64,000 bases of DNA from Spirochaetota bacterium (GTDB lineage Bacteria > Spirochaetota > UBA4802 > UBA5368). Positions 5,120 to 28,455 of this stretch are shown here, in pieces. The DNA is taken from contig DATIKU010000031.1 of assembly GCA_035477215.1 (NCBI GenBank), forward strand, positions 1 through 64,000. Reading direction: 5' to 3'. Under the pieces are notes generated by a model. It ran no database searches, had not been told where the DNA came from, and saw nothing but the letters and a program-made list of their open reading frames with translations. A program made the position numbers and the translations under genes. Within the stretch, counting starts at the first letter, position 1; each line of letters begins with the position of its first letter.

Positions 5120-5225
5120 TAATGTAAGCATAGTGACCGGCACGCCGCTCGATCGGTCCTTTGGGCCCGGTCGCCCGGACCCCGGCGGGCGTCCTGCGTC
5201 GCGCGCCACAACAGGAGGATACACG

Positions 5226-5972
5226 ATGAAAACCATACGGCGAACACTACGCACATTCGTACTACTGCTCGCGCTCTCCCCGATTCCCGCGGCCGCGGAA
5301 TTCATAGCCGTTCTGCAGGGTGGCACGGTGTACTCATCCCGCAACGACGTGGCCCTTCCCGGCGACACGGGAACGCGCTTTTCGTACGTCGACGACCTCG
5401 ACTCGGACATTGTGTTCTCGCCGCGCGTGGAGGCCGGGTACGAGTTCGCCGGGCGGCATTACGTCGGGCTCATGGCGTCGTGGCTGAGGATTCGTCCCGA
5501 GGGAAGGCTCGACCGGGCCGTCGAGTTCGACGGCAAAACCTTCCCGGCCGGCACCGACGTAAAGGGGCGCTTCAGGTTCGATTCATACCGGGCGCATTAC
5601 CGCTATTATTTTCTGAGCAACGGGATCGTGAAGCTCGGCGCCGGCATTACCGGGAAGATTCGGGACGCCGAGATTTCGCTGGAGGGCGGCGGGCAGAAAG
5701 GGGGGCTCGACAATACCGGCTTCGTGCCGCTATTGAACTTCTACCTGGAATGGATCGTCTCTCCGGCCCTGTCGCTCCTCGCCTGCGGCGACGCGGCGTG
5801 GTCGCCCTACGGCCGCGCCGAGGACGTGTTCGCGGGGATCGTGTACCGCCGCACCGAACGCGTGGCGCTCATGGCCGGCTACCGGCTGCTCGAGGGCGGC
5901 GCCGACAACGACACGGTCTATACCTTCTCAATGTTCCATTACGCGGTGCTCGGCGCGGAGCTGCGCTATTAA
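5226..5972 (+). CDS. Outer-membrane beta-barrel-type protein
   Basis: 248 residues after choosing the ATG at 5226, which has AGGAGGA in front. Residues 1-24 are a signal peptide ending PAAAEF. The rest alternates short amphipathic strands (GYEFAGRHYVGLMASWLRI, YRAHYRYYFLS, VALMAGYRLL) and ends with a strand closing in Tyr (LGAELRY), typical of an outer-membrane barrel of about 8-10 strands. Substrate or role unknown. Possibly regulated through the palindrome at 5101-5119. Confidence 0.8.
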   Translation: MKTIRRTLRTFVLLLALSPIPAAAEFIAVLQGGTVYSSRNDVALPGDTGTRFSYVDDLDSDIVFSPRVEAGYEFAGRHYVGLMASWLRIRPEGRLDRAVEFDGKTFPAGTDVKGRFRFDSYRAHYRYYFLSNGIVKLGAGITGKIRDAEISLEGGGQKGGLDNTGFVPLLNFYLEWIVSPALSLLACGDAAWSPYGRAEDVFAGIVYRRTERVALMAGYRLLEGGADNDTVYTFSMFHYAVLGAELRY

Positions 5973-6043
5973 GGCACGGACCTCCGATCCTGGCGCGCGC
6001 CGCTACGTCCGCGCCAGGCGAGCCCGTTATCAGGCGGCGCCGC

Positions 6044-6520
6044 TCAGGCCTTAACCGAAAGCGTCACCAGTTCCTGAACCGCGCCTTCGATCCCCCTGGA
6101 GGTCTCGGACAGCTCGGTGGAGCCGTGCGCGATCTCCTGCGCGCGCTGGTTGATGTACGATATATTCCTCGAAATCTCGTCGAAGGCGGTCTTCTGCTCG
6201 TCGACCGCCGTGAGTATCCTGTCGGCCTCCGAGAGTATCCGCCCGAGCGAGCCGCGCGCCATCGTGACGAATGAGTAGCAGCCCGCGCTCGTAAACACCA
6301 GGGAGACGGTGCTGTCGATTATGAAATCGAGCATCTGGGAGAAATTGAGGTCGCCGGCGGACTCGAAGACGATGCCGAGTAGAAAAACCAGCGCGATATT
6401 CGCCACCGAGGAGATGCGTTTAACGGGGCGAACCGAGGCAATGCACCGCCGGGTTCCGGTTGAACGGGCGCTCGGTACGCGCGGCCTGCGCGAACAGGAA
6501 CAGCAGTGACGCGCCGATAT
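6044..6520 (-). pseudogene. Truncated, frameshifted chemoreceptor-like gene
   Basis: Minus-strand reading from about 6520 gives a hydrophobic stretch DIGASLLFLFAQAARTERPF that runs to a stop at 6420-6422. A second frame takes over near 6430 (VKRISSVANIALVFLLG) and continues through a helix and a coiled coil (FDEISRNISYINQRAQEIAH) to the typical receptor C-terminus ending at 6044. The CheA-binding hairpin tip is missing and no N-terminal start is found before a large inverted repeat at 6520-6577. Best read as a decayed receptor; the 3' part (from GTG at 6406) could still be translated. Confidence 0.55.
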
Positions 6521-6577
6521 CCCTGAATATTCAGGGACACCGTGCGCCCCGGGAGCGGACGGGGCACGGTGTCCCTG
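6520..6577. repeat. Composite palindrome / large hairpin
   Basis: Two nested inverted repeats: TCCCTGAATATTCAGGGA (6520-6537, perfect) and CAGGGACACCGTGC(G)CCCC at 6532-6550 pairing with GGGGCACGGTGTCCCTG at 6561-6577 (17 paired bases, one bulge, 10-base loop). It lies between the 3' end of the GlsB-type gene and the broken receptor. As a minus-strand terminator it lacks a U-run. It could be a small mobile or REP-like palindrome that marks the truncation point of the receptor. Confidence 0.65.
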
Positions 6578-6581
6578 AGGA

Positions 6582-6830
6582 TTATTTTTTGATCAGCTTC
6601 ACGATATACAACAGCACAATCGCACCGACGAGCGCGACAACGATTGAGCCGAGCATTCCTCCCGCCGTTATGCCGAGGAGCCTGAACAGGAAGGCGCCGA
6701 TAAACGATCCGATGATGCCGACGATGATATTACCGGCGAGGCCGAACCCGCCGCCTTTCATGATTATTCCGGCCAGCCACCCGGCGACCGCCCCGATCAC
6801 CACAAACAGAAGTAACGATGTAAGGCTCAT
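6582..6830 (-). CDS. GlsB/YeaQ/YmgE-family small membrane protein
   Basis: 82 residues starting MSLTSLLLFVVIGAVAGW at an ATG preceded by AGGAGGGGAAT. Three hydrophobic segments rich in Gly contain the family hallmarks (GWLAGIIMKGGGFGL, NIIVGIIGSFIGAFL, GGMLGSIVVALVGAIVLLY). Members of this 'transglycosylase-associated' family are stress-linked inner-membrane proteins without known catalysis. A 3' remnant of a paralogue lies at 2182-2295. Confidence 0.92.
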   Translation of the reverse strand: MSLTSLLLFVVIGAVAGWLAGIIMKGGGFGLAGNIIVGIIGSFIGAFLFRLLGITAGGMLGSIVVALVGAIVLLYIVKLIKK

Positions 6831-6911
6831 ATTCCCCTCCTGGCGTATTTGATATACCCGCATTCTTTCACGGTCCGCGGATAAAGTCAAGCGCGCGTGA
6901 TGTATTTCACC

Positions 6912-9077
6912 TTACGGCTTTTTCGTCATTTCTTCACCCGGTCGGTATTCGCGCTCGAGGTTCGCGCGTATCTCGCTCTCGTCGCGCCACACCGGCTTGA
7001 GCTCGCGCCTTGCGAAGAGCGGCGACTGGTCGGCATAATGTTTCGACGCCGCGTCGAGAGTGGCGCTTCCGTACTGGTGGATGCTCCGCGAGGAGAGCTT
7101 CCCGTTTCGGTCCCAGGTGACCAGAAGCACGTAGGAATCGCCGACCCTTCCCCGGAACCGTCCGTCCTTCATCAAGTCGCCGGTCACATCGTGCAGCACG
7201 TCGGGACCGCCGCCGAGACCCAGGTCGGTAGTCCCGCGTATCAGCCGGTTCACCATCGACCAGGGAACATCGACGCGCCCGTGCGCGCTTTGCACGAGCC
7301 TCGCGGCCTTCGCGAACCCGTTGGCGATGGCGCGTTCCGGGACGTCCGCGACCTCGACCCTCTCGCGGCCCTTCATGATGATGGTATGGCAGGTCACAGC
7401 CAGAGCCGCGCCGGTGTTGTCCGGATCCACGCGCAGGTCCCAGCGTGCCAGAACATCACGGGCATTCTTTACAACGGGATCATCGGACGGGGGAAGCGCG
7501 AGGATGCGCACCACGAGCTTCGCCATCTTCGACTCCTTCGAGTAGGCCATGTCATACTTGTAGCGGTAGAATTCTTCCGGCGTTATGGAGTCGTCCGAAC
7601 CGAAGAGCTCGAGCGCGCGAAGCGCCCTGTTCGTCATGCGAAGCTCTATTCCATACGATTTCGAATAGTCCTCCGCGCGCGGATTTTCGGGGTCGAGCGT
7701 GGCGCGAAACGGCGTGTTGTTGCAGTTCTGGACGAAACCCGACGCGGGGTTCTTGACGCGCGGCAGGCGCCCGTACGGCAGATACCCGGTCCACAGGGTC
7801 TTCGAGGTGTCGCCGGGCAGGCGCTTCGACCAGTCGTAGCCCTCGTCGCGCAGTGGAAGCAGCGCCTGGTAGTGATACAGGATGTTCCCCTCGCGATCGG
7901 CGTAGGTGCAGTTGAACATCGGCAGGGTCGCCATGCCAAGCGCCTCCTCCCACTCGGACATGTTTCTCGCCCGGTTCATGCGGTACCACTGCTCGACCTG
8001 GCGGATGTCGCTCATCCCGGCGTAACGCACGGCGAAGACCCCGTGCGGCCTGCGAATGGCCGGGCCGTAGACCGACCACAGCACCTCCTCTTTGAAGGTC
8101 CAGCGCAGTGGCCCCAGCAGTTTTACCCGTATCGGCGCCTCGCGGACCTCGAGCTCGCGCCACGCGCCGTCGTAGCGGTACTGGTTCGGGTTGTCGGGGT
8201 TGATGTCGAGCTCGTACACGTCCACAAGGTCCGGGTAGTTGTTGGTGTGGGCCCAGCCGAGATACTCGTTGTGCCCGTGGAACACGACGGGCGAGCCCGG
8301 GAACAGACCGCCGGTCATGTTCCATCCCTCCTCGCTGTGCACGTGGGCCTCGTACCAGGTGACGGGCCCCTCCCACGGCTGGTGCGAATTAATGGCCAGC
8401 ATCGTTTCGCCGCCGGCGCTCCGCCGGGGCGACAGTGCGATGGCGTTCGAACCGACGCCCGTCCCGAAGCGGGAGGGCGCGTCATGCCCGAAGGACGCGG
8501 CGAGCATTGAGTCGATCGGCCGGAGGGCCGCGGTCTTCGGCTTTTCGAAAAGCTCTTTCAGTACGACATCGACGCCCACCATGAGCGGCATCTTGTGGAC
8601 AAACCCCGCCACGATGTGCTTTCCCGTTACGCGTCCCAGGCCCGGAACGGTTTCGCGCGGATGGAGAGCGGCGTAGTGATTGACGCCCCCGGCATAGGCC
8701 TCGCACAGGGCGCGCGTGCGCGGGTCCAGGTCGGTCTCGTATCTCGCGTTCACCGTGTCCCACAGGCGGATGAGGTTCACCAGGTAATCGTTCCCCGCGC
8801 CCTTCGGCCCGAGCACGCTCGCCAGGCGGCCGCCGACCGCCATCATGACCAGTTGCATGGTCTTGAAGTCGTCTTCGGCGTGGGCGTACGCCAGCCCGAA
8901 GGCCGCGTCGGTATCCTTCTTCCCGAACACATGCGGCACGCCCCAGCGGTCGCGCAGTATCCGCACGTCGTATCCGGAAGAGATATCGGCCGCGGCATTC
9001 TGGTCGCGAATCGAGGCGACCAGGATCAGAGGTACTATGACGAGCACGGCTGCGAGGCGACGCGTCGACGATTTCAT
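6912..9077 (-). CDS. Penicillin acylase-family N-terminal-nucleophile hydrolase
   Basis: 721 residues with a signal peptide (residues 1-30). The alpha part carries the family's DRWGVPHVFG and GLAYAHAEDD motifs. The beta-chain nucleophile is Ser210 in GVGSNAIALS, where autocatalytic cleavage would occur after Gly209. HTNNYPDLVDVYEL and the C-terminal GGGPDVLHD region also fit the family. The arrangement resembles acyl-homoserine-lactone/aculeacin acylases (PvdQ type) more than penicillin G acylase, so the likely reaction is hydrolysis of an amide in a fatty-acylated substrate in the periplasm. Exact substrate unknown. Confidence 0.92.
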   Translation of the reverse strand: MKSSTRRLAAVLVIVPLILVASIRDQNAAADISSGYDVRILRDRWGVPHVFGKKDTDAAFGLAYAHAEDDFKTMQLVMMAVGGRLASVLGPKGAGNDYLVNLIRLWDTVNARYETDLDPRTRALCEAYAGGVNHYAALHPRETVPGLGRVTGKHIVAGFVHKMPLMVGVDVVLKELFEKPKTAALRPIDSMLAASFGHDAPSRFGTGVGSNAIALSPRRSAGGETMLAINSHQPWEGPVTWYEAHVHSEEGWNMTGGLFPGSPVVFHGHNEYLGWAHTNNYPDLVDVYELDINPDNPNQYRYDGAWRELEVREAPIRVKLLGPLRWTFKEEVLWSVYGPAIRRPHGVFAVRYAGMSDIRQVEQWYRMNRARNMSEWEEALGMATLPMFNCTYADREGNILYHYQALLPLRDEGYDWSKRLPGDTSKTLWTGYLPYGRLPRVKNPASGFVQNCNNTPFRATLDPENPRAEDYSKSYGIELRMTNRALRALELFGSDDSITPEEFYRYKYDMAYSKESKMAKLVVRILALPPSDDPVVKNARDVLARWDLRVDPDNTGAALAVTCHTIIMKGRERVEVADVPERAIANGFAKAARLVQSAHGRVDVPWSMVNRLIRGTTDLGLGGGPDVLHDVTGDLMKDGRFRGRVGDSYVLLVTWDRNGKLSSRSIHQYGSATLDAASKHYADQSPLFARRELKPVWRDESEIRANLEREYRPGEEMTKKP

Positions 9078-9127
9078 GGGGCTTTCTCCCTCGGTCTTAC
9101 GGGTACTACGCTCGTTTGAGCTCGATC

Positions 9128-9155
9128 AGAATAGCACGAGGAGCGGAATTGGCAA
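9128..9155 (-). promoter_or_regulatory. Probable promoter of the acylase gene
   Basis: On the minus strand TTGCCA (9150-9155) and TATTCT (9128-9133) are 16 bases apart, about 50 bases upstream of the ATG at 9077, which is preceded by GAGGGAGAAAG. Confidence 0.5.
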
Positions 9156-9274
9156 TAAGTTTACGGAACGAGCGCTTTTCTTCGCCAGACGCGGGAACGC
9201 CTTCGCCTTCCGGGGATCGGCCTGGAACGATACTCCACTTTCCAGAATCCATCCCCCTTCCCCCAACATTACTG

Positions 9275-9303
9275 TTGACGCCGCGCTCCCGTTGTGCTAT
9301 ATT
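9275..9303 (+). promoter_or_regulatory. Promoter of ssrA (tmRNA)
   Basis: TTGACG (9275-9280), 17-base spacer, TATATT (9298-9303). The tmRNA 5' end (9314) lies 10 bases after the -10 box, so initiation occurs at or just before the mature end. Confidence 0.8.
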
Positions 9304-9313
9304 GTACTATGCA

Positions 9314-9664
<351 letters not shown>

Positions 9665-19174: not shown

Positions 19175-22100
19175 CTACCTTGGTTTTTCGATTATAACGT
19201 GCCGTTGTTCGGCCTGCTGGACGGCCGTCGAGAAGTCGACAAACTCACCGTAATCGGCCGGATCGATGCAGACCGCGTTAACGTGTACTTCCTTGTCGAC
19301 ATCGAGCTCAATGGACCCCGGGCGCTTCGACACCCGAATCATGGCATACCCGAACCGGCACCGCACCACGTCTTCCCTTTCCAGCACGGCCCCGCGATAC
19401 TCCTCGGGGAGAACAAAACTATAGGACTCTGACTCGTTTACCGGACGGACGATGTGAAAAAGATGCTTTCTATTACGATCGTCGACATGGTTCAGCACTT
19501 CGCTCGAGTTGAGCACCGGTGAAATGACGATCCGGTCGGGCGCTACCGCGGAAATGGAGAATACCCTTCCCTTGACCGCAAGTTCCAGGGGCGAATCAGC
19601 CGCTTCGAGGCCGGCGAGTTTAAAATCGTCAAGGCTGAAAGCTGGAAACATTTGTGCGAGGAGCCGGTTGACCATCTCCTCCCTGGATTGTGCGTCCTGG
19701 AACAGCGAACGCACCTCCCCCCGGGCGCCGTAAAAGCGTATGCTCCCGTTGAAAAAAGCGTTCCCCCTGTTGTCGATTTGCACCTTCATTCCGATCCTGC
19801 TCCCGCTCATTCTCAGAGAGGTGACGGTGCGCGTTTCAGCCTTGTCCCGCAGAATGACCAGGGCCTCGGTCCCCTCAATCTCCGGGCCCACCACGCCGTA
19901 GCCGTTATTGGCCTGCGAGAAATCAATCCAGACCCCGCCTCGCCGGTCGATTGGCACATACAGCAGTACATGCGAAAATATCCCGGGAGAGACGAAACCG
20001 CGAAGGTCGGGGAAATCCCGCCCACCCGTGAAAGCGAAATACGAACGTATCCCCAGGCATTCCAGCATCGCCCTGGCAAGCACCGCCTTGTCCTCCGGCG
20101 TGCCCCTGCGCTTCATCATCGTTGTCGCCGCTTTTTCGGGATAGTAAAGTACATTGCCTAACAGATCGATCTCCCGCGACACAAAGGCATAAATCCTTCT
20201 TGCCGCTTCATCCACGCTGCCGCCGGCGAACTTCGTGCGGATATCGTCGTCCGGAAGAGAGAACGCATCACGCACAAGGCCGTTATACCATATAGCAAAT
20301 TCCTTCCGATTCCGCATCGTGGAGATCGAATACAGCGGAAGATATTGCAGCCTGTTCCCCATCGCGCGTTCCATCCGGACAGGCTTATGGCTTTCGCTTC
20401 TCATCAAATACTCGATCATGCCGTTGCGCCTTCGGTGCGTCACCTCGCCGCCGGTGTAGACAATTTTCACGTCCATGTCCTCTGGAGCGATTACCCGGCA
20501 TGAAAACACGCCAAGCGCTTCGTCAAAATCGTGTATTGCCGCGATGGGAGTCGCGAAAATCCTCGATGAACCCCGCAGGTCGAAGGGATTGTCCGCGTAG
20601 TAGGCGACATGAATGACGGAACGCTCGCCGAGCGACGGGAGGGAAAGATATGAGGTCCCGTCCACACGAATAATCCGGCCGGCGTCGCTGTAGCTTCCGT
20701 CCTCACGATAGACCCGGGCCCTCACTGGATACACCCTGTTCCCGTGCTCGAGCCTGAACTCTCCATATCGCTCGATACCCCGGCTGTCATGGATATAAAT
20801 AACGTCCTCGCAGAAAGCCCGGCTGCTGCCGTCCGCGTTCAGCCGGTATATCCTTCCCCGGTAAATAACCTCGGATGGAACGCCGGTGCCTTTTTTCTTG
20901 CCACGTATCCACGAGGCGGCGTGGTCCTCGCCCTTTTCCTCCCGGTCGCGGGCCATTGGTGGTTCGAACCCTCCCCCGGCGAGGAAATCCAGCAGGTCGC
21001 CCATCTTATAATAGGACGGCGCGATCGCAAGCATCCTTCCCCAGTCGGGCGAAGGGACCTCCCCTTCCAGGTAGCCGATCCTCCCCAGTCGCAGGTAATC
21101 CTCAGGATCTTCCTTTACGGCGACCCTCTCTAAAAGCAACCGGGAGGCCCGCTCGTATTCACCGATGTCGATGAGTGCGTCGATACGTTCCCTGCCGTAG
21201 TCGTCGAAACGGTCGTGTTCGTCCACAAGAGCGATAATATCCCCATGCCGTTCCATGTCGCGGCAGATGTCTATCAGCGTTTCGAACGAGGTTCTGTCAA
21301 AACCCTTGCCAAGGATCTCACGGTACTGCCGGGCCGCGAGAGCGGGGTCATTCCAGCGGTTGTGCGCGGCCAGTCCTTTTCTCGGCGCCGGCGAAGACGG
21401 GAACTCCTTCGCAAAGAGCGCGATATCTTCCTCGAATTCCTTTTCATACCCGAGCTCCGAAAGCAGCATCGAATAGGCCTCCCTTAGAGGCAGAAAGAAC
21501 GGGGCGCGCCGCACAAGCGATCTGCCAACGGCATAAGCCTCAGCCATTGCCCGCCTGCCCGTCATGATCTGCAGTCGGCGGTACTGTGCCGGAATAAACG
21601 ACGAGTCCGTTTCGCACAGATCATGATAGATGCGCGCCGCTTCCACATACTCCGCGGAACTTTTGTCGCTTTCCGCACTCTCCAGAAGTGATTCCGCCAG
21701 GAAATAGCGAGAGGGATATCCACCCTCGGATGATTTCCCCTTCCTGAAATGCTTAACCGCCTCGCGGCTGTCGCGTTCGCGGAAATAGCTTCCCAGGTGG
21801 AAGGACGCGCCGGGTACCCCGCTGTACAAACGCCCCACCAGCAGATCGTAGGGATAATCCAGCACCTCCATAAATTCGCACGGCCCCGTGGCCGGCCTGT
21901 CCGAAGAGCCCTTCAACGGGACGGGCCTGTCGTTCATGTCGGTCACGATCAATCGGAATCGCCAGTCATCATCGGCGTACAGTTTCATCACTATCGTTAT
22001 GTTCCCCTCCGCTTTCGCCTCGATTACGCGGACCGACCGGCGGATACCGGCATCGATGTTCGCGACGGCCTCTCTCCCGTTAATAAAAAGCCGGTACGCG

Positions 22101-22759
22101 CATGGTGAATATACGCGCAACCTGACGGGACTCCCTGGCGAAAGGGTTGTAGTCGCGTATGCCACACCCCTCTCGGGGTAGAGTATACGCTTGAAATCGA
22201 CCTCCCCGGTTTTTTCATCCGCGACAGCCTTTTTCCATCGCGCTTCGTTCCCCGCCTCCGGTGAAGCTATTTCGGGCAGGAACGGATACTCCAGGTCGGC
22301 AGCGCCGAATTGATAATAGGGCCCCGACACCATCCAATGCCGGACCGGGTGCAGAAGCTTTGCATCCTCGATCGCTTTCAAAGGCGCAAACCGGCGCGCC
22401 AGTTTTTCGCGCTCAATCAGGATCAAAAGGCGGTACAGGTTCGCGTTCGGCGCATTTTCCGCGTCGAGCCCGGCGATGACGCGCGTAAAAACGCCGTCGA
22501 CCCTGGCGAATCCATGAAGGTCTGAAAGCGTACCAAGATCGGAGAAATACAGCGCCGCCTCGGGCGCGGCGGGAAATCGCAGCAGCATGGCCTCGATGGA
22601 ATCGTACAGTGCGTAATAATCGCCTGCGGCGAAGCTCCTGAATATACGCTCCTCGTACGCGCGTATGTCTTCCTCCGCCGCTCCCGCCGGAACGGCCCAC
22701 AGGAGGAACACCGCCCCTGCCAGCGCGAGCGTCTTACCGAACAGCCTTCGGCCCGCCAT
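19175..22759 (-). CDS. Large secreted TPR protein with inactive transglutaminase-like domain
   Basis: 1194 residues with a signal peptide (to about PAGAAEE). The N-terminal half is helical TPR-like. Around residue 650-800 is a DUF3857-type beta region, then a transglutaminase-like fold. Compared with its neighbour's GDCKD, this protein has GTPED: the nucleophile is Pro888, while the His (SHVLL, His930) and Asp (IDFS, Asp946) positions are kept. It therefore cannot be a Cys-dependent enzyme and may be a structural or regulatory partner of the active paralogue. The start overlaps that gene by 26 bases. Confidence 0.85.
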   Translation of the reverse strand: MAGRRLFGKTLALAGAVFLLWAVPAGAAEEDIRAYEERIFRSFAAGDYYALYDSIEAMLLRFPAAPEAALYFSDLGTLSDLHGFARVDGVFTRVIAGLDAENAPNANLYRLLILIEREKLARRFAPLKAIEDAKLLHPVRHWMVSGPYYQFGAADLEYPFLPEIASPEAGNEARWKKAVADEKTGEVDFKRILYPERGVAYATTTLSPGSPVRLRVYSPCAYRLFINGREAVANIDAGIRRSVRVIEAKAEGNITIVMKLYADDDWRFRLIVTDMNDRPVPLKGSSDRPATGPCEFMEVLDYPYDLLVGRLYSGVPGASFHLGSYFRERDSREAVKHFRKGKSSEGGYPSRYFLAESLLESAESDKSSAEYVEAARIYHDLCETDSSFIPAQYRRLQIMTGRRAMAEAYAVGRSLVRRAPFFLPLREAYSMLLSELGYEKEFEEDIALFAKEFPSSPAPRKGLAAHNRWNDPALAARQYREILGKGFDRTSFETLIDICRDMERHGDIIALVDEHDRFDDYGRERIDALIDIGEYERASRLLLERVAVKEDPEDYLRLGRIGYLEGEVPSPDWGRMLAIAPSYYKMGDLLDFLAGGGFEPPMARDREEKGEDHAASWIRGKKKGTGVPSEVIYRGRIYRLNADGSSRAFCEDVIYIHDSRGIERYGEFRLEHGNRVYPVRARVYREDGSYSDAGRIIRVDGTSYLSLPSLGERSVIHVAYYADNPFDLRGSSRIFATPIAAIHDFDEALGVFSCRVIAPEDMDVKIVYTGGEVTHRRRNGMIEYLMRSESHKPVRMERAMGNRLQYLPLYSISTMRNRKEFAIWYNGLVRDAFSLPDDDIRTKFAGGSVDEAARRIYAFVSREIDLLGNVLYYPEKAATTMMKRRGTPEDKAVLARAMLECLGIRSYFAFTGGRDFPDLRGFVSPGIFSHVLLYVPIDRRGGVWIDFSQANNGYGVVGPEIEGTEALVILRDKAETRTVTSLRMSGSRIGMKVQIDNRGNAFFNGSIRFYGARGEVRSLFQDAQSREEMVNRLLAQMFPAFSLDDFKLAGLEAADSPLELAVKGRVFSISAVAPDRIVISPVLNSSEVLNHVDDRNRKHLFHIVRPVNESESYSFVLPEEYRGAVLEREDVVRCRFGYAMIRVSKRPGSIELDVDKEVHVNAVCIDPADYGEFVDFSTAVQQAEQRHVIIEKPR

Positions 22760-25700
22760 TTTTTATGCTCCTTAGAATTATGCGCTCGTTTTCTTTCCGG
22801 TGGATGAAGAGCAGAAACTCCCGGAATTCGCCGTACTCCGACGGGTCGACCGAGGAGTCCCTGAAAACGATGCTCGATCTCACCTCGATTTCCGCTTTCC
22901 CCTTCATCGCGTATTCAAACTTCGCCACGAAGCGGGAATGAACGCGCTCCTCCCCCCTCGGCAATACCGCGACCTCCCATCCCACGGGCATCGTGAACCG
23001 AACGGTCGTCTCGCTCGTCCATCCCCCCGATATGCGGACAGGGAAAACACGCGATTTCATCATTCCGTATTCTCGGTAATAATCCGACGACACGAGGAAC
23101 GATTGGAAGGCGGCGTACTCCCCCGTCGTGGAGAGAAACGAGGGGATGCGTCCGTCGTACGAATACACCACCGGCCGCTCGATTCCGGCCTGATGCATCG
23201 AAAGGCCGTTAATGGACGTACCGGTGTATTTGGAATTCCAGTAGGAAGCGATCCCCCTCAGCTTTTCGGATTCGTCCAGAATATCGAGTCGAACGGAACG
23301 GGCGAACGCCCCGCCCTTGCTAAGGGTTCTTTTAAAAACAGCGCCGCCCCCCGCATCGATGGCAACGTCGGTGGTCACCGCATCAGTGTTCTCGTGATAA
23401 AAACTGCCGGTCGTAGTAATAAAAGAATGACCGCCGTCACCGATGACGAACGCCTGTATATTCCGGTCTTCCGTCGGCAGCTCGCGGCTGCCCGCCATTT
23501 TCGCCGTGGCGTCCAGGAAAATGCCTCCTTCCAGATTGACAAAACAGATTGCATGGTTGAACTGCCCGATGAATGCGATGGACCGGTCAAGGGCGCCGCG
23601 CTCACGGGTGCGGACGAGAGCCATCCTCGCGTCGATCCCCGATTTGCGGAGCATCGATATTAGCACAAGTGTGAGGTCCTTGCAGTCGCCCATCCGTGTC
23701 GCATAGGTCAGGTCGGCGTTCCGCGGCTGCAGCCCGCCCAGGCCCAGTTCAAAACCGACATACCGTATCGACGAATTGACATGGTTGAATATCTTCCTCA
23801 TTTTTTCCAGGTCGCTGTCTTCGGGTCCGACAATTTCGGCGAGGTCTTTTTGCATCTCAGTGCTCATCGTTACCCTGCCGCGCATAAGGGATGAGTACCA
23901 GCGCGCGGCTTCCTCCCAGGTGCCATGCGAACTGACGATCAGGGACGGGACGATCTCGCTCTGGTGCGGCATGGCGACCTCGTCTTTGCTGGGGGGCAGG
24001 TTCGAAAGCGAGAGCCGGTATATTCGCCGATCTCCCTGGCGCGTAACGGATAAGCGATCGTTCCCAAGCCCCCTCAGGCGCACATGCAGCCGCATGCCCT
24101 CGGGCCGGCTGATAACGGTGTTCGAAATCAGCGTCCTGTAGCGCCCACCGGCCATAATCTGCTCGCCGACATACCCGCGGTACAGCCGCGCCTCACCGCT
24201 CCGTACCCGGTAGCTCAGATCGACCAGGCTCCCCTTGCCAAGCGAGGGGACCGAGAGCACCCTGGCCTGCACATCGTAGTACATCCGGCTTTCTGGGTCC
24301 GAAAGCGAGCGAACGTACGACTCCGCGGATTCCACCACCTCGCCGCCGCGCGTGACGGTGCAGCGCACGTCCTCGACACGATCCGTCGCGGGATTGAAGA
24401 TAATGTACTGTGTGGAGAAATCGCGTATGGCGCTTTCAGCGTTGATTCGGAACACCCTGCGCACCGTCTTCTCGTACGACCCGTCGGCCGTGATCTTCAT
24501 CACGCACTCATCAAGTATCACCACCGCGGCCTCGTCCGGATATAGCCCCGTGCCATCATCGAACACGGGCAGGTCTTTCACCCGAAAGCGGTCCAGCGGG
24601 TCGGGAGTACTCTCTATCGCGTCGATATACTCCTTCATTCTGAAGTTGTCGGGATTGCGCAGGAGCGCTTCTTTCATATAGTAAAGACCCGACGAGACAC
24701 TCCCGGTCTGGTAATAGAGGGAGCCAATATCGAAAAGTATACCGCTGTCATCCGGAGCGAGCGCGAGTGCCGCGGTAAGGTAGGGCAGAGCGGCCTCTCT
24801 TCCCCTGGAGGTTCGCACGGCACCGGCAAGTCTTCGGCGCAGGTCGGCATCGCAGGGGAAAAGGTGCACGGCCCCCTCAAGGGCGGATATGGTCCCGCCG
24901 GCTTCGCCCGTGCGTTCCAGCGAATCGGCGAGCGCCCTTGCATACGTCCTGTTGTATCGGTCCAGGCCACACAGTATTCCGTATTCGTCGGCCGCGCTTC
25001 GGTAACGCTGCCGAAGGTTCAGGACCCGGCCCCGGACGGTCCTTCCCACAGAAGGAAAGCCCGATTCGATCAGGGATCTCGCTTGTTTAAGCGCCTCGTC
25101 GTACCATCCCCTTTCCGTAAAATACAACGATTTAAGCTCCGACGCGGCGGGGCAGGACGGATTTATCTCTCTTATCCGGGCGATGAGCGGCGGCGTCTCG
25201 TGGAGAAAGCCGTTGGATATCCTGCTTTCCACAATCTTCACGAGCGGCAAAAGGGCGGTGCGATCGCCGTCAGCGGCCTGGCGCAGGAGTATATCGCGCT
25301 TCTCCTCATCATCCCGGCACAGGGCAAGATAGTAGCGCGCCATGCGACCATATGCGTCACTTCCGAGGGCGGCCTGGAACAGGGCGGCCGCTTCGCCCGT
25401 CTCCTCGCTGTCAAGGCCTGCGGCGTATATCAGGTATCCGGCGCGAAACGCATCGTCCGGCCCGCCTTTGCCGGCACGGGCGGAAAGCTCGCGTAAAGCG
25501 GGAAACCATGAAGCACCGGCCACCGTTCCGGTATCGCGCGCGACCTTCGCATTTTCATTTTTATCGAGCTCATTGTGGCGGAGCGAGAACTTGATTCCGT
25601 CCCCGAGCGAATCCTCCATCCTGACAAGTACGCGATGCCTCCCGGGGACGCAGCGCACCTTCACACGGTACTGGTCGTGCACGAATCGGTGCCTGGTCTC

Positions 25701-26423
25701 GCTCTTAAAAACCCGCCTTCCGTCAATCCATATTTCCGTATGACCGGTCTTCCCGATATGGAACACCCGGGTCTCCTCGGAGCGCGTCGTGAACTCGGCC
25801 GCGAAGAAATACAGCGCGTCCGCCGCGTCGAGGTTCCTTTCGCCGATATCGAGGATGCCCATGCGGTCTGTCCGGGCGTCGAACCAGCGCACCGGATGGA
25901 GTTTTCCGGGATAGAGTACGGCCGCGCCGATGTCGGCCTTCGGCATCCGCGCGGCATCGAATGGTGTCGCGCCATGAGGATCAAAGGGCCCGAGCACTTT
26001 GAAGTCATTAACGAAACCGAGCTCATCGAGCATCGCTTCCGCCGCGCCGGTAACGCCGCTTCGAAGCGACAGCCAGGCGTGAAGAATCCGTATGCGGGCC
26101 CTGAGCGATTCGCTCCGGGCGACGGCCTCATTCTCCGCGAGCAGCCGTTCACATGCCCGAATGCCCCCGGGGACCAGTTCAGGATAGCTCAGCGCTTCGG
26201 CCATCCTGAATACGCCGTACTCGAGCAGCGCCGGATCGTCTTCCTTCAGCGCCGTCTGCACAAGCTCTTTGAGCGCACCGCGGGAATCTCCGCGCCAGAG
26301 CCGTTTTCCGGACGACAGCCAGGGGTCTTCCGCCGCCCCCGCGGGGGCGGACGCGTTCACTGCCGCCAGCACAAGCACGGCCGTAAAAATTCCCATGAAG
26401 ATCCTGTAGAGCATCCTCTGCAT
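22734..26423 (-). CDS. Large secreted TPR-DUF3857-transglutaminase protein (intact triad)
   Basis: 1229 residues with signal peptide (MLYRIFMGIF...ASAPAGAAED). Residues about 30-600 are alpha-helical repeats, about 620-800 a DUF3857 domain, and about 880-980 a transglutaminase-like domain with Cys914 (GDCKD), His957 (NHAIC) and Asp971 (FLDAT). The C-terminal part is beta-rich. Such proteins act outside the cytoplasmic membrane; the reaction may be amide hydrolysis or crosslinking, but the substrate is unknown. Lies between the TPR lipoprotein (2-base gap) and the inactive paralogue (26-base overlap), so the three are one operon. Confidence 0.88.
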   Translation of the reverse strand: MQRMLYRIFMGIFTAVLVLAAVNASAPAGAAEDPWLSSGKRLWRGDSRGALKELVQTALKEDDPALLEYGVFRMAEALSYPELVPGGIRACERLLAENEAVARSESLRARIRILHAWLSLRSGVTGAAEAMLDELGFVNDFKVLGPFDPHGATPFDAARMPKADIGAAVLYPGKLHPVRWFDARTDRMGILDIGERNLDAADALYFFAAEFTTRSEETRVFHIGKTGHTEIWIDGRRVFKSETRHRFVHDQYRVKVRCVPGRHRVLVRMEDSLGDGIKFSLRHNELDKNENAKVARDTGTVAGASWFPALRELSARAGKGGPDDAFRAGYLIYAAGLDSEETGEAAALFQAALGSDAYGRMARYYLALCRDDEEKRDILLRQAADGDRTALLPLVKIVESRISNGFLHETPPLIARIREINPSCPAASELKSLYFTERGWYDEALKQARSLIESGFPSVGRTVRGRVLNLRQRYRSAADEYGILCGLDRYNRTYARALADSLERTGEAGGTISALEGAVHLFPCDADLRRRLAGAVRTSRGREAALPYLTAALALAPDDSGILFDIGSLYYQTGSVSSGLYYMKEALLRNPDNFRMKEYIDAIESTPDPLDRFRVKDLPVFDDGTGLYPDEAAVVILDECVMKITADGSYEKTVRRVFRINAESAIRDFSTQYIIFNPATDRVEDVRCTVTRGGEVVESAESYVRSLSDPESRMYYDVQARVLSVPSLGKGSLVDLSYRVRSGEARLYRGYVGEQIMAGGRYRTLISNTVISRPEGMRLHVRLRGLGNDRLSVTRQGDRRIYRLSLSNLPPSKDEVAMPHQSEIVPSLIVSSHGTWEEAARWYSSLMRGRVTMSTEMQKDLAEIVGPEDSDLEKMRKIFNHVNSSIRYVGFELGLGGLQPRNADLTYATRMGDCKDLTLVLISMLRKSGIDARMALVRTRERGALDRSIAFIGQFNHAICFVNLEGGIFLDATAKMAGSRELPTEDRNIQAFVIGDGGHSFITTTGSFYHENTDAVTTDVAIDAGGGAVFKRTLSKGGAFARSVRLDILDESEKLRGIASYWNSKYTGTSINGLSMHQAGIERPVVYSYDGRIPSFLSTTGEYAAFQSFLVSSDYYREYGMMKSRVFPVRISGGWTSETTVRFTMPVGWEVAVLPRGEERVHSRFVAKFEYAMKGKAEIEVRSSIVFRDSSVDPSEYGEFREFLLFIHRKENERIILRSIKNGGPKAVR

Positions 26424-26425
26424 GT

Positions 26426-27268
26426 CTATCTCGCCTCGCCCCCGTCCCCGTGGTCCATAAGCCGCATGGCCCTGTTCAGCACCTTCCGGGCGTCGTCTTT
26501 CCTGTTTTGCCTCAGCAGCATGGAGGAATAATCGATATACGCCTGCCGGTACCCCGGGAAGGACTTTATACAGCGCCGGTAGTAAACCTCCGCTTCATCG
26601 TCCCTGCCGGCCTTTTCCATGAACACCGCCATGCGATGTACGGAGACCGGATTGTCATCATTGGTTTCCAGCGCCTCGCGGTAAAAACGCCCGGCCATGG
26701 CGTAGTCTTCTCGCTCGAAAAAGATATCGCCCAGTTCCAGGCCCGCGTAACTGTTCTCCGGATAGCGTTCCTTCATAAGCAGCAGGGTCTTCGCCCCGTC
26801 CTCGAGACGCCCCGCGTGCCGGTAGAGTATGTACAGGTTATAATATGCTGGAATGATCGCGTCAGCACCGCCGATCATATCGAGAAATCCACTCTCCGCC
26901 TCCCTGACTTTGCCGTCGTTGAGACTGATACAGGCCATGTTGTTCTTTGCCATCGCACGATGCCGTGCACCTGTGGCTGTTATCGCCTCATATTGCTTCA
27001 TGGCCCGTCCCGCGCTCCCCGAAGCGCGCTCGACCGTGTGATAATACCGGGCGAGGTTCCATAAATCGCAGCCCGTTTTGACCTGACGCTTTGCGATCCT
27101 GTCGATATCGCCCTTCCACTCTTCGCCGCAGTCCGACGGAAACCTCAGCGCGAGCGGAAGAAGTCCCGGGCTGTTTTCTATTATATCGTCCGCTTTATTG
27201 CGCACGGTTGGCGAGGCGCAGACGATGAAAAAAAGCGCAAAAGCGACGATAACGGCCTTCATGGACAT
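26426..27268 (-). CDS. TPR lipoprotein, first gene of the transglutaminase operon
   Basis: 280 residues with a short signal and lipobox-like FIVCAS (Cys17). The mature part holds about five TPR units (NLARYYHTVERASGSAGRAM, YYNLYILYRHAGRLEDGAKT, ELGDIFFEREDYAMAGRFYR and others). Probably a membrane-anchored scaffold for the two large proteins encoded downstream. Divergent from another TPR protein gene at 27493. Confidence 0.85.
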   Translation of the reverse strand: MSMKAVIVAFALFFIVCASPTVRNKADDIIENSPGLLPLALRFPSDCGEEWKGDIDRIAKRQVKTGCDLWNLARYYHTVERASGSAGRAMKQYEAITATGARHRAMAKNNMACISLNDGKVREAESGFLDMIGGADAIIPAYYNLYILYRHAGRLEDGAKTLLLMKERYPENSYAGLELGDIFFEREDYAMAGRFYREALETNDDNPVSVHRMAVFMEKAGRDDEAEVYYRRCIKSFPGYRQAYIDYSSMLLRQNRKDDARKVLNRAMRLMDHGDGGEAR

Positions 27269-27331: not shown

Positions 27332-27492
27332 GTTTAGACATTTGGTTGCGGTACCGTTTACGATTGGCGGACACATGGCCTCGCCGCGTCTGATGTTCCC
27401 GGGGCGCTGCGCGACCATTTCAGCGGTGACTACGCTGAGGTAGTAGTGCCCGCCATGGCGAGTTTTTCAAGAGTTTTTCTTTGAACCGAACG

Positions 27493-28455
27493 ATGATGAC
27501 ACCCAGAACCGGACTGCTTTTATGCTCGTTGATAGTGTGCATCATTCTGCCCGCGCATATCCCGGCGTCCGCTGACCGCTCGCGCGTTGACCCGTTCCAT
27601 GATGTCTTTTACCTCTATTATACCGAAAGCCGGCCACAGGCGCGCCGCATGCTTTCCGCCCTCTTGAAAAATCGTGCTCTTCGCGGACGCGCCCTTATAA
27701 ACGCCGGTAAAATCGACGAGATGGAAAGACGCCCTTCCGCGGCCCTCTCTTCCTACCGAACTGCGCTCGAGTCCGGCGAAACGCTTGCGATTCCCTATCT
27801 TTATTCCGCCCTGCTTGCGGGCGACCCGTCGGCCGCCGATGCGATGCTCCGGTCGCTCCCCCCGACAAAGGGCGTCCACTGGCTGTCGTACGAACGAGCG
27901 CTAATTCGGCTTCGCTCGGGAGACACGGCCGGGGCAATTCGTTTTTTACGGGAGGCCATTGAACTGGGGTTCAACTCGCACGAGCTCATCCGGCGGGAAC
28001 CGCTTTTTGACGCGATCCGGAGCTCGCCTGAATTTTTAAAGATTCTTGCGGGGATTAACATGATTCCGCCTGTACGGCTCGCACCGATGCTCGATGAAAT
28101 CCGGCTGGGCGAAACCCGGGGCACTCCTCTGGCCATGAGCCCGGAGCTGTCGGCCGCCGGAGCGCTCGAACGGAAGGGCCGGCTTGCGGAGGCCGAGCGC
28201 ACGCTTCGCGGCCTGCTCGAAACGCGCCTCGCGTTTAATGAACGTAGCGTGGCGCTCTACCGGCTCGCGCGCCTGCGCGCCCGTCAGGGCGACGCGGCGG
28301 GCGCCCGCGAGTTTCTCAGACGCCATGCGGAACATTTCAATACGGTCCGCGACGATCCCTCGGGCTATCGCGGGATCGTCCTGCCACTGATGGGCGAGAT
28401 CCTCGCCAACGACGATACCGGATTATTTTCCTATGCAGAAACGGGAGAATATTGA
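27493..28455 (+). CDS. Secreted TPR-repeat protein
   Basis: About 320 residues. Signal peptide MMTPRTGLLLCSLIVCIILP ending around PASADR, then helical repeats (ALINAGKIDEMERRPSAALS, AERTLRGLLETRL, RLARLRARQGDAAGAREFLR). The ATG at 27493 or 27496 fits the signal peptide better than the TTG at 27481. No catalytic motif; likely a periplasmic scaffold, possibly functionally linked to the divergent operon. Its 3' end overlaps the mnmE 3' end by 33 bases on the opposite strand. Confidence 0.75.
   Translation: MMTPRTGLLLCSLIVCIILPAHIPASADRSRVDPFHDVFYLYYTESRPQARRMLSALLKNRALRGRALINAGKIDEMERRPSAALSSYRTALESGETLAIPYLYSALLAGDPSAADAMLRSLPPTKGVHWLSYERALIRLRSGDTAGAIRFLREAIELGFNSHELIRREPLFDAIRSSPEFLKILAGINMIPPVRLAPMLDEIRLGETRGTPLAMSPELSAAGALERKGRLAEAERTLRGLLETRLAFNERSVALYRLARLRARQGDAAGAREFLRRHAEHFNTVRDDPSGYRGIVLPLMGEILANDDTGLFSYAETGEY

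Follow-up and report, generated by a model that had tools for sequence, protein, structure and literature searches.

The window, by which we mean the whole stretch of 64,000 nucleotides that was analysed, belongs to a spirochaete genome, the closest named relatives being unclassified Spirochaetes MAGs and Spirochaetia bacterium UBA5368. It carries three tightly packed genes on its minus strand (Table 1). They encode a TPR lipoprotein and two large proteins of the same plan, here called A and B. According to the ORF coordinates only 2 bases separate the lipoprotein gene from the gene for A, and the end of the latter overlaps the start of the gene for B by 26 bases; overlaps of this A/B type are also present in relatives. 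The original prediction had described this compact arrangement, with Cys914-His957-Asp971 in the 1229 residues of A, and Pro888 (GTPED for GDCKD), His930 and Asp946 in the 1194 residues of B. The arrangement was confirmed and all of the residue numbers proved exact. A scan for a promoter and a terminator of the operon showed no clear excess over shuffled sequences. DUF3857 occurs a single time in the whole genome, in protein A. Elsewhere in the window, at positions 9314-9663, a tmRNA gene with the tag peptide ANNELALAA is located.

Table 1. Genes, domains and active-site codons of the locus (coordinates of the window)
Feature	Position	Strand	Remarks
TPR lipoprotein gene, first of operon	26426-27268	-	280 aa; ORF coordinates, TPR matches
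Protein A gene	22734-26423	-	1229 aa; ORF coordinates, Pfam, predicted structure
Protein B gene	19175-22759	-	1194 aa; ORF coordinates, Pfam, predicted structure
Divergent TPR gene	27481-28455	+	324 aa, TTG start; candidate accessory only; abuts mnmE, jag, yidC
Overlap of A 3' end with B 5' end	22734-22759	-	26 bases; ORF coordinates
DUF3857 domain of A	23988-24488	-	Pfam
Codon of Cys914 of A (GDCKD), putative catalytic residue	23682-23684	-	Cys in 24/25 A orthologues
Codon of Pro888 of B (GTPED), at the Cys position	20096-20098	-	Cys in 0/25 B orthologues
Codon of His930 of B	19970-19972	-	His in a minority of orthologues
Codon of Asp946 of B	19922-19924	-	Asp in 25/25 aligned Spirochaetota orthologues

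Domain plan and active sites of A and B

Protein A consists of a signal peptide, a helical segment, a beta-sandwich, a TPR array, DUF3857, a transglutaminase-like domain and a C-terminal beta-sandwich, and B follows the same plan with a transglutaminase-like domain that is devoid of the Cys (P888; H930; D946). The Pfam matches of A to DUF3857 (PF12969; E = 2.6e-21, 76.8 bits for a cut-off of 24.6) and to Transglut_core (PF01841; E = 4.4e-9, 37 bits for a cut-off of 23) both exceed their thresholds; B gives traces of Transglut_core and DUF3858 that lie below the curated cut-offs. At E <= 0.01, DUF3857 is matched in 11 and DUF3858 in 17 of 23 B orthologues, and one B orthologue has a PA14 match at some place in the protein. 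A BLASTP comparison of A with B gave 23% identity over 596 residues with E = 8e-17, hence their homology is beyond chance. AlphaFold2 models were built from 21 A and 23 B sequences, and the predicted folds have a mean pLDDT of 87.5 and a pTM of 0.64 for A, and of 88.1 and 0.84 for B. Both models show an N-terminal helical segment, a beta-sandwich and a long TPR solenoid, followed by a unit made of DUF3857, the transglutaminase-like domain and the C-terminal beta-sandwich. The best PDB match is 3KD4 in both cases, with a TM-score by target length of 0.83 for A and 0.75 for B (E = 1.1e-19 for B). A PDB sequence search with the C-terminal half of B returned no match, the relationship being seen in the fold search. 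That the B model matches 3KD4 suggests that the whole fold has been retained in B despite the missing catalytic Cys. The export-type N-termini of A and B indicate that both are exported multi-domain proteins. The initial view of two secreted proteins with one common plan is confirmed.

In a joint alignment of A and B from the window's group, C/H/D is found in 24 of the 25 Spirochaetota A proteins. None of the 25 B proteins has the Cys, and P, V, A, S or T is present instead; the His position is occupied by His in a minority of them, and the Asp is present in all 25. With its Cys-His-Asp triad, A has the residues of a competent papain/transglutaminase-like enzyme and can be predicted to be one, and B lacks this triad. 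His and Asp were expected to remain in B, which is true of the window copy and, for the Asp, of the entire aligned group, but this is no general rule since His is kept only in a minority of the Spirochaetota B proteins. Outside the Spirochaetota most B partners have a shortened Cys loop, with RG-NR in place of GDCKD, and the Cys is replaced or deleted in every B that can be aligned through the active site (the partner ORFs of loci L110, L114, L125 and L152 end before the active site and the B of L193 is misframed or cut, and none of these was counted for the Cys). The alignments across homologues therefore argue for a Cys loss that is old and fixed in B, and not local. Of the predicted Cys-to-Pro change, it is the loss of Cys that is general; Pro is one of several replacements, and outside the Spirochaetota group the residue is usually deleted.

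In the Spirochaetota, several residues that flank the dead site are nearly invariant and particular to B (G886, E889, D890, W944, D946, F947 and S948). Within the genus dN/dS is 0.13-0.17 for B and 0.12-0.19 for A, and purifying selection on B appears equal to that on A. These data bear on whether B could be a decaying duplicate of A, or its Pro a local mutation. The lost Cys and the variably lost His would fit with decay. However, the loss is common to all aligned B across phyla, B has a conserved motif of its own (GTxEDK/WLDFS), its dN/dS is low as given above and its full-length fold is predicted with confidence. The orthologue alignments and dN/dS rule out decay or local mutation, and we consider the probability of this explanation as practically nil. 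It could also be imagined that B catalyses some other, Cys-independent reaction by means of conserved Glu and Asp residues, given the fully or almost invariant E889, D890 and D946 of the Spirochaetota B proteins. However, these residues are not kept in the B proteins of Myxococcota and Acidobacteriota, in which the loop is shortened to G-NR, and such an activity seems very improbable.

Distribution of the pair and loss of the catalytic half of A

Among 98 related genomes, 46 have a match to B and 50 a match to A (E <= 0.001, weak matches included). For a wider view, 84,980 genomes were scanned with a profile of the A alignment and the best 80 loci were taken. Outside the Spirochaetota, an A/B-related ORF of about 1200 aa directly follows 36 of the 38 long A genes among these 80 loci that have room downstream, and GDCKD is found in none of these B-like ORFs. 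The groups concerned are Myxococcota, Acidobacteriota, Planctomycetota, Coatesbacteria, Aminicenantes and unassigned MAGs. Among the same best 80 loci, no such partner follows any of the 12 short A-type proteins (600-870 aa) that have room. As loci ranked by their similarity to A are biased towards the long form, 58 Myxococcota genomes were in addition sampled evenly; several of the loci in this sample are also in the best-80 set. A is present in 33 of these 58 genomes; B adjoins 27-28 of the 35 long A loci, the other 7-8 having no recognisable B beside them, and the Cys is absent from each B whose alignment extends across the site. The counts of 36/38, 12 and 27-28/35 were tallied by reading the result tables. 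A live and a dead homologue are thus encoded side by side in five or more bacterial phyla. In profile comparisons between phyla, the B families align with one another almost from end to end, with E down to 2e-78, and those of Myxococcota and Acidobacteriota score higher against the B families of the other phyla than against the A family with which they are paired. In families f4 and f7 of the order to which the window belongs, A and B are located at separate loci, so that the two need not be transcribed as one polycistronic mRNA.

In a tree of 54 C-terminal halves, which has many long branches and was obtained with a quick tree search, A and B part on one branch with an SH-aLRT of 99, and the organism groups on the A side recur for the most part on the B side. 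A mirror-tree comparison of the patristic distances of A and B gave r = 0.88, and none of 2000 permutations was as high. This congruence points to a shared history, which adjacency of the genes also yields, and is no proof of contact. A and B can be described as an enzyme-pseudoenzyme pair in the sense of two homologous proteins, one of them without catalytic residues, that appear to be conserved together over long times, and we regard the reading of a conserved pair as well supported by the sequences. This pairing was the core of the original prediction, and it is substantiated by the adjacency in several families and phyla, the co-inheritance and fusions of the two in two genomes. It was to be doubted if homologues of B usually kept the Cys, or if the two proteins never co-occurred elsewhere; since B has lost the Cys for good and does co-occur with A, neither objection stands. 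The anomaly noted first is real and much larger than supposed.

In an Aminicenantes genome (L182, G102:C89:12000-19500), two short DUF3857 ORFs of 654 and 630 aa that have no long N-terminal half are found in tandem. The first has C/H/D, and the second keeps the Cys (GNCLD) and has Ser at both the His and the Asp positions. This tandem is possibly a second, independent pair of a live and a dead protein.

Within the order, A is often reduced. In G011 and G020 the N-terminal half of A (residues 1-611) is fused to a Cys-less B, and the DUF3857/transglutaminase part of A is gone. G029, G030 and G034 have a separate protein that corresponds to the N-terminal half of A only, alongside a B gene, which in G030 and G034 is interrupted by a contig end or a gap. 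The A protein of G033 has S/R/D in place of C/H/D, both C and H being mutated. Ten further genomes have a shortened B only (812-896 aa), also without the Cys, and the search for A in these ten gave no match beyond weak TPR matches. The reverse case, an A with an intact catalytic domain and no B, is found only in G043, an assembly that is 81% complete. Single absences are weak because some assemblies are incomplete; the trend for the dead partner to be retained longer than the live one nevertheless appears clear within the order. One genome of the order has a third protein of the DUF3857/transglutaminase type, encoded by an ORF of 1394 aa (L079, G035:C3:706000-722000; 5121-9305 on the minus strand), in which the A-like part is N-terminal.

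One might propose that B is a regulatory pseudoenzyme that mainly controls the catalysis of A, as an allosteric activator, an inhibitor or a substrate decoy. The homologous fold with a dead site, the gene pairing and the co-inheritance would all be in line with such a role. However, B is kept in about 16 genomes of the order in which the catalytic half of A is missing or mutated, and a pure regulator would not be expected to survive there. As B persists without the catalytic domain of A, it cannot serve solely to regulate A, and a mainly regulatory B is in our opinion improbable. A more serious possibility is that A and B are co-inherited in one process and do not bind each other, each having its own ligands and being joined by operon history. 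B would then be a pure binding or scaffold protein and A an enzyme acting on another target. The separate loci in f4 and f7, the ten genomes with B alone and the loss of the enzyme while B is kept are all consistent with it. Nevertheless, the direct fusion of the N-terminal half of A to B in two genomes, the near-constant adjacency in distant phyla and the congruent divergence of A and B argue against it, and we judge independent action rather unlikely. A physical complex of A and B, reasoned from the sequence and gene patterns, is what we consider somewhat more probable than its absence.

Possible membrane anchoring, neighbouring genes and a working model

The lipobox of the 280-aa protein, FIVC, is poor, with an atypical V at -1. 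The same Cys lies in a better lipobox in each of five close orthologues (LTSC, IAAC, LIAC, FIAC and VAGC), and by this conserved Cys the assignment of the protein as a lipoprotein holds. Its suggested role as the scaffold of the complex does not. Apart from one other genome (G030), a separate TPR lipoprotein gene precedes A in the window's family alone, and the protein is therefore not a core scaffold; beyond the window's family, the gene neighbourhoods rule out a core role. The divergent gene next to the operon had been proposed as a fourth member; its TPR product has a hydrophobic segment at the N-terminus and is predicted to be exported or anchored in the membrane. Its orthologues adjoin A divergently in 12 genomes of four families, a distribution wider than that of the lipoprotein gene, but this adjacency may only reflect that gene order is conserved next to mnmE, jag and yidC. 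At best, the lipoprotein and the divergent TPR gene would be lineage-specific accessories. No conserved third partner was found near the pair in other phyla; the common neighbours are rsgA, trpE/trpG and a sugar nucleotidyltransferase gene, all of them housekeeping genes. In family f7, at the locus with B alone (L068:2358-5510), the upstream genes include those for a trypsin-like PDZ protease of the HtrA type and for an N-acetylmuramoyl-L-alanine amidase-like protein, in four genomes.

A and B themselves were scored for a lipobox with a regular expression in place of a trained predictor. By this test 18 of 26 B and 1 of 27 A proteins have a lipobox in the Myxococcota census, as do 12 B and no A in 40 pairs from several phyla. 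In phyla other than Myxococcota most B proteins fail the test, and in the Spirochaetota neither A nor B passes it. Given the lipoboxes of B in Myxococcota and the separate lipoprotein in the window's family, membrane tethering through B or beside B is plausible.

We propose, with somewhat more confidence than doubt, that A and B are ancient duplicates kept as an enzyme-pseudoenzyme pair in which B is the structural and anchoring half and recruits the soluble A. The two proteins, products of an ancient gene duplication, would be located in the periplasm or on the outer envelope. The TPR array and the conserved dead cleft of B may bind a polypeptide partner, and B would be attached to the membrane through a lipid anchor of its own, as in most Myxococcota, or through a separate TPR lipoprotein, as in the window's family. 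B would recruit A through like-with-like contacts of the N-terminal beta-sandwich/TPR halves. The contact is placed there because this part of A is the one that remains, alone or fused to B, where the catalytic part has disappeared. A could then act on the partner held by B, by Cys-dependent proteolysis, deamidation or cross-linking; an envelope protein or a peptidoglycan-linked peptide is our guess for the substrate. Lineages that no longer need this chemistry would drop the catalytic half of A and keep B, and sometimes fuse the N-terminal half of A to it. In its widest form the model describes a trans-phylum envelope machine, made of a lipid-anchored pseudo-transglutaminase TPR receptor (B) as indispensable core and a soluble, putatively competent paralogue (A) as optional effector, which would stem from a single duplication that took place when these phyla separated or earlier, or have spread as a unit. 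We give this wider form an even chance of being correct.

Comparison with known systems

DUF3857 proteins occur widely among diderm bacteria and have hardly been characterised. Live and dead homologues side by side in at least five phyla, the dead one outlasting the live one, offer a testable working model for this family. In the literature on DUF3857, inactive transglutaminases and BDI_1141 we found no description of such an enzyme-pseudoenzyme pair, and a single paper among those searched names DUF3857, merely for its position next to lolA. A model for B is absent from NCBIfam. The occurrence of the pair in so many phyla suggests that the proposed two-part envelope system is old, and it is apparently undescribed.

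Inactive transglutaminase domains are present in polymorphic toxins, for which peptide binding or anchoring at the cell surface has been proposed (Zhang et al. 2012, PMC3482391). Like B, these domains are exported and have lost the catalytic residues; they are, however, N-terminal and associated with RHS repeats, whereas B is a stand-alone TPR protein paired with a triad-bearing homologue. Another envelope protein with a dead transglutaminase domain has been reported, whose disruption alters the production of membrane vesicles (PMC12096838). It resembles B in both location and dead domain, but is an inner-membrane protein with seven transmembrane segments, and it is not described as having DUF3857, a TPR array or an A-type partner.

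The closest structural relative is 3KD4 (BDI_1141 of Parabacteroides distasonis, named 'putative protease'), whose three-domain fold of DUF3857, Transglut_core and DUF3858 (PF12969/PF01841/PF12970) is the same as that of the C-terminal halves of A and B. It differs by its size of about 500 residues, with no TPR array and no N-terminal beta-sandwich. In the sequence alignment 3KD4 has GTPLE where A has GDCKD, which means that the only solved DUF3857 relative seems to be Cys-less despite its name of protease, and it looks like a pseudoenzyme itself. Current annotation thus overlooks half of the system, with no NCBIfam model for B and a sole solved structure that is named a protease and seems to be without the catalytic Cys.

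LbcA is among the TPR fold matches of the B model. The PDB entry 7RQF we take to be LbcA/CtpA of Pseudomonas aeruginosa. In this system a lipid-anchored TPR protein recruits a soluble periplasmic protease; CtpA belongs to the serine proteases, which have no relationship to transglutaminases, and LbcA and CtpA are not paralogues. LbcA/CtpA may thus serve as an analogy for the working model in which B recruits A.
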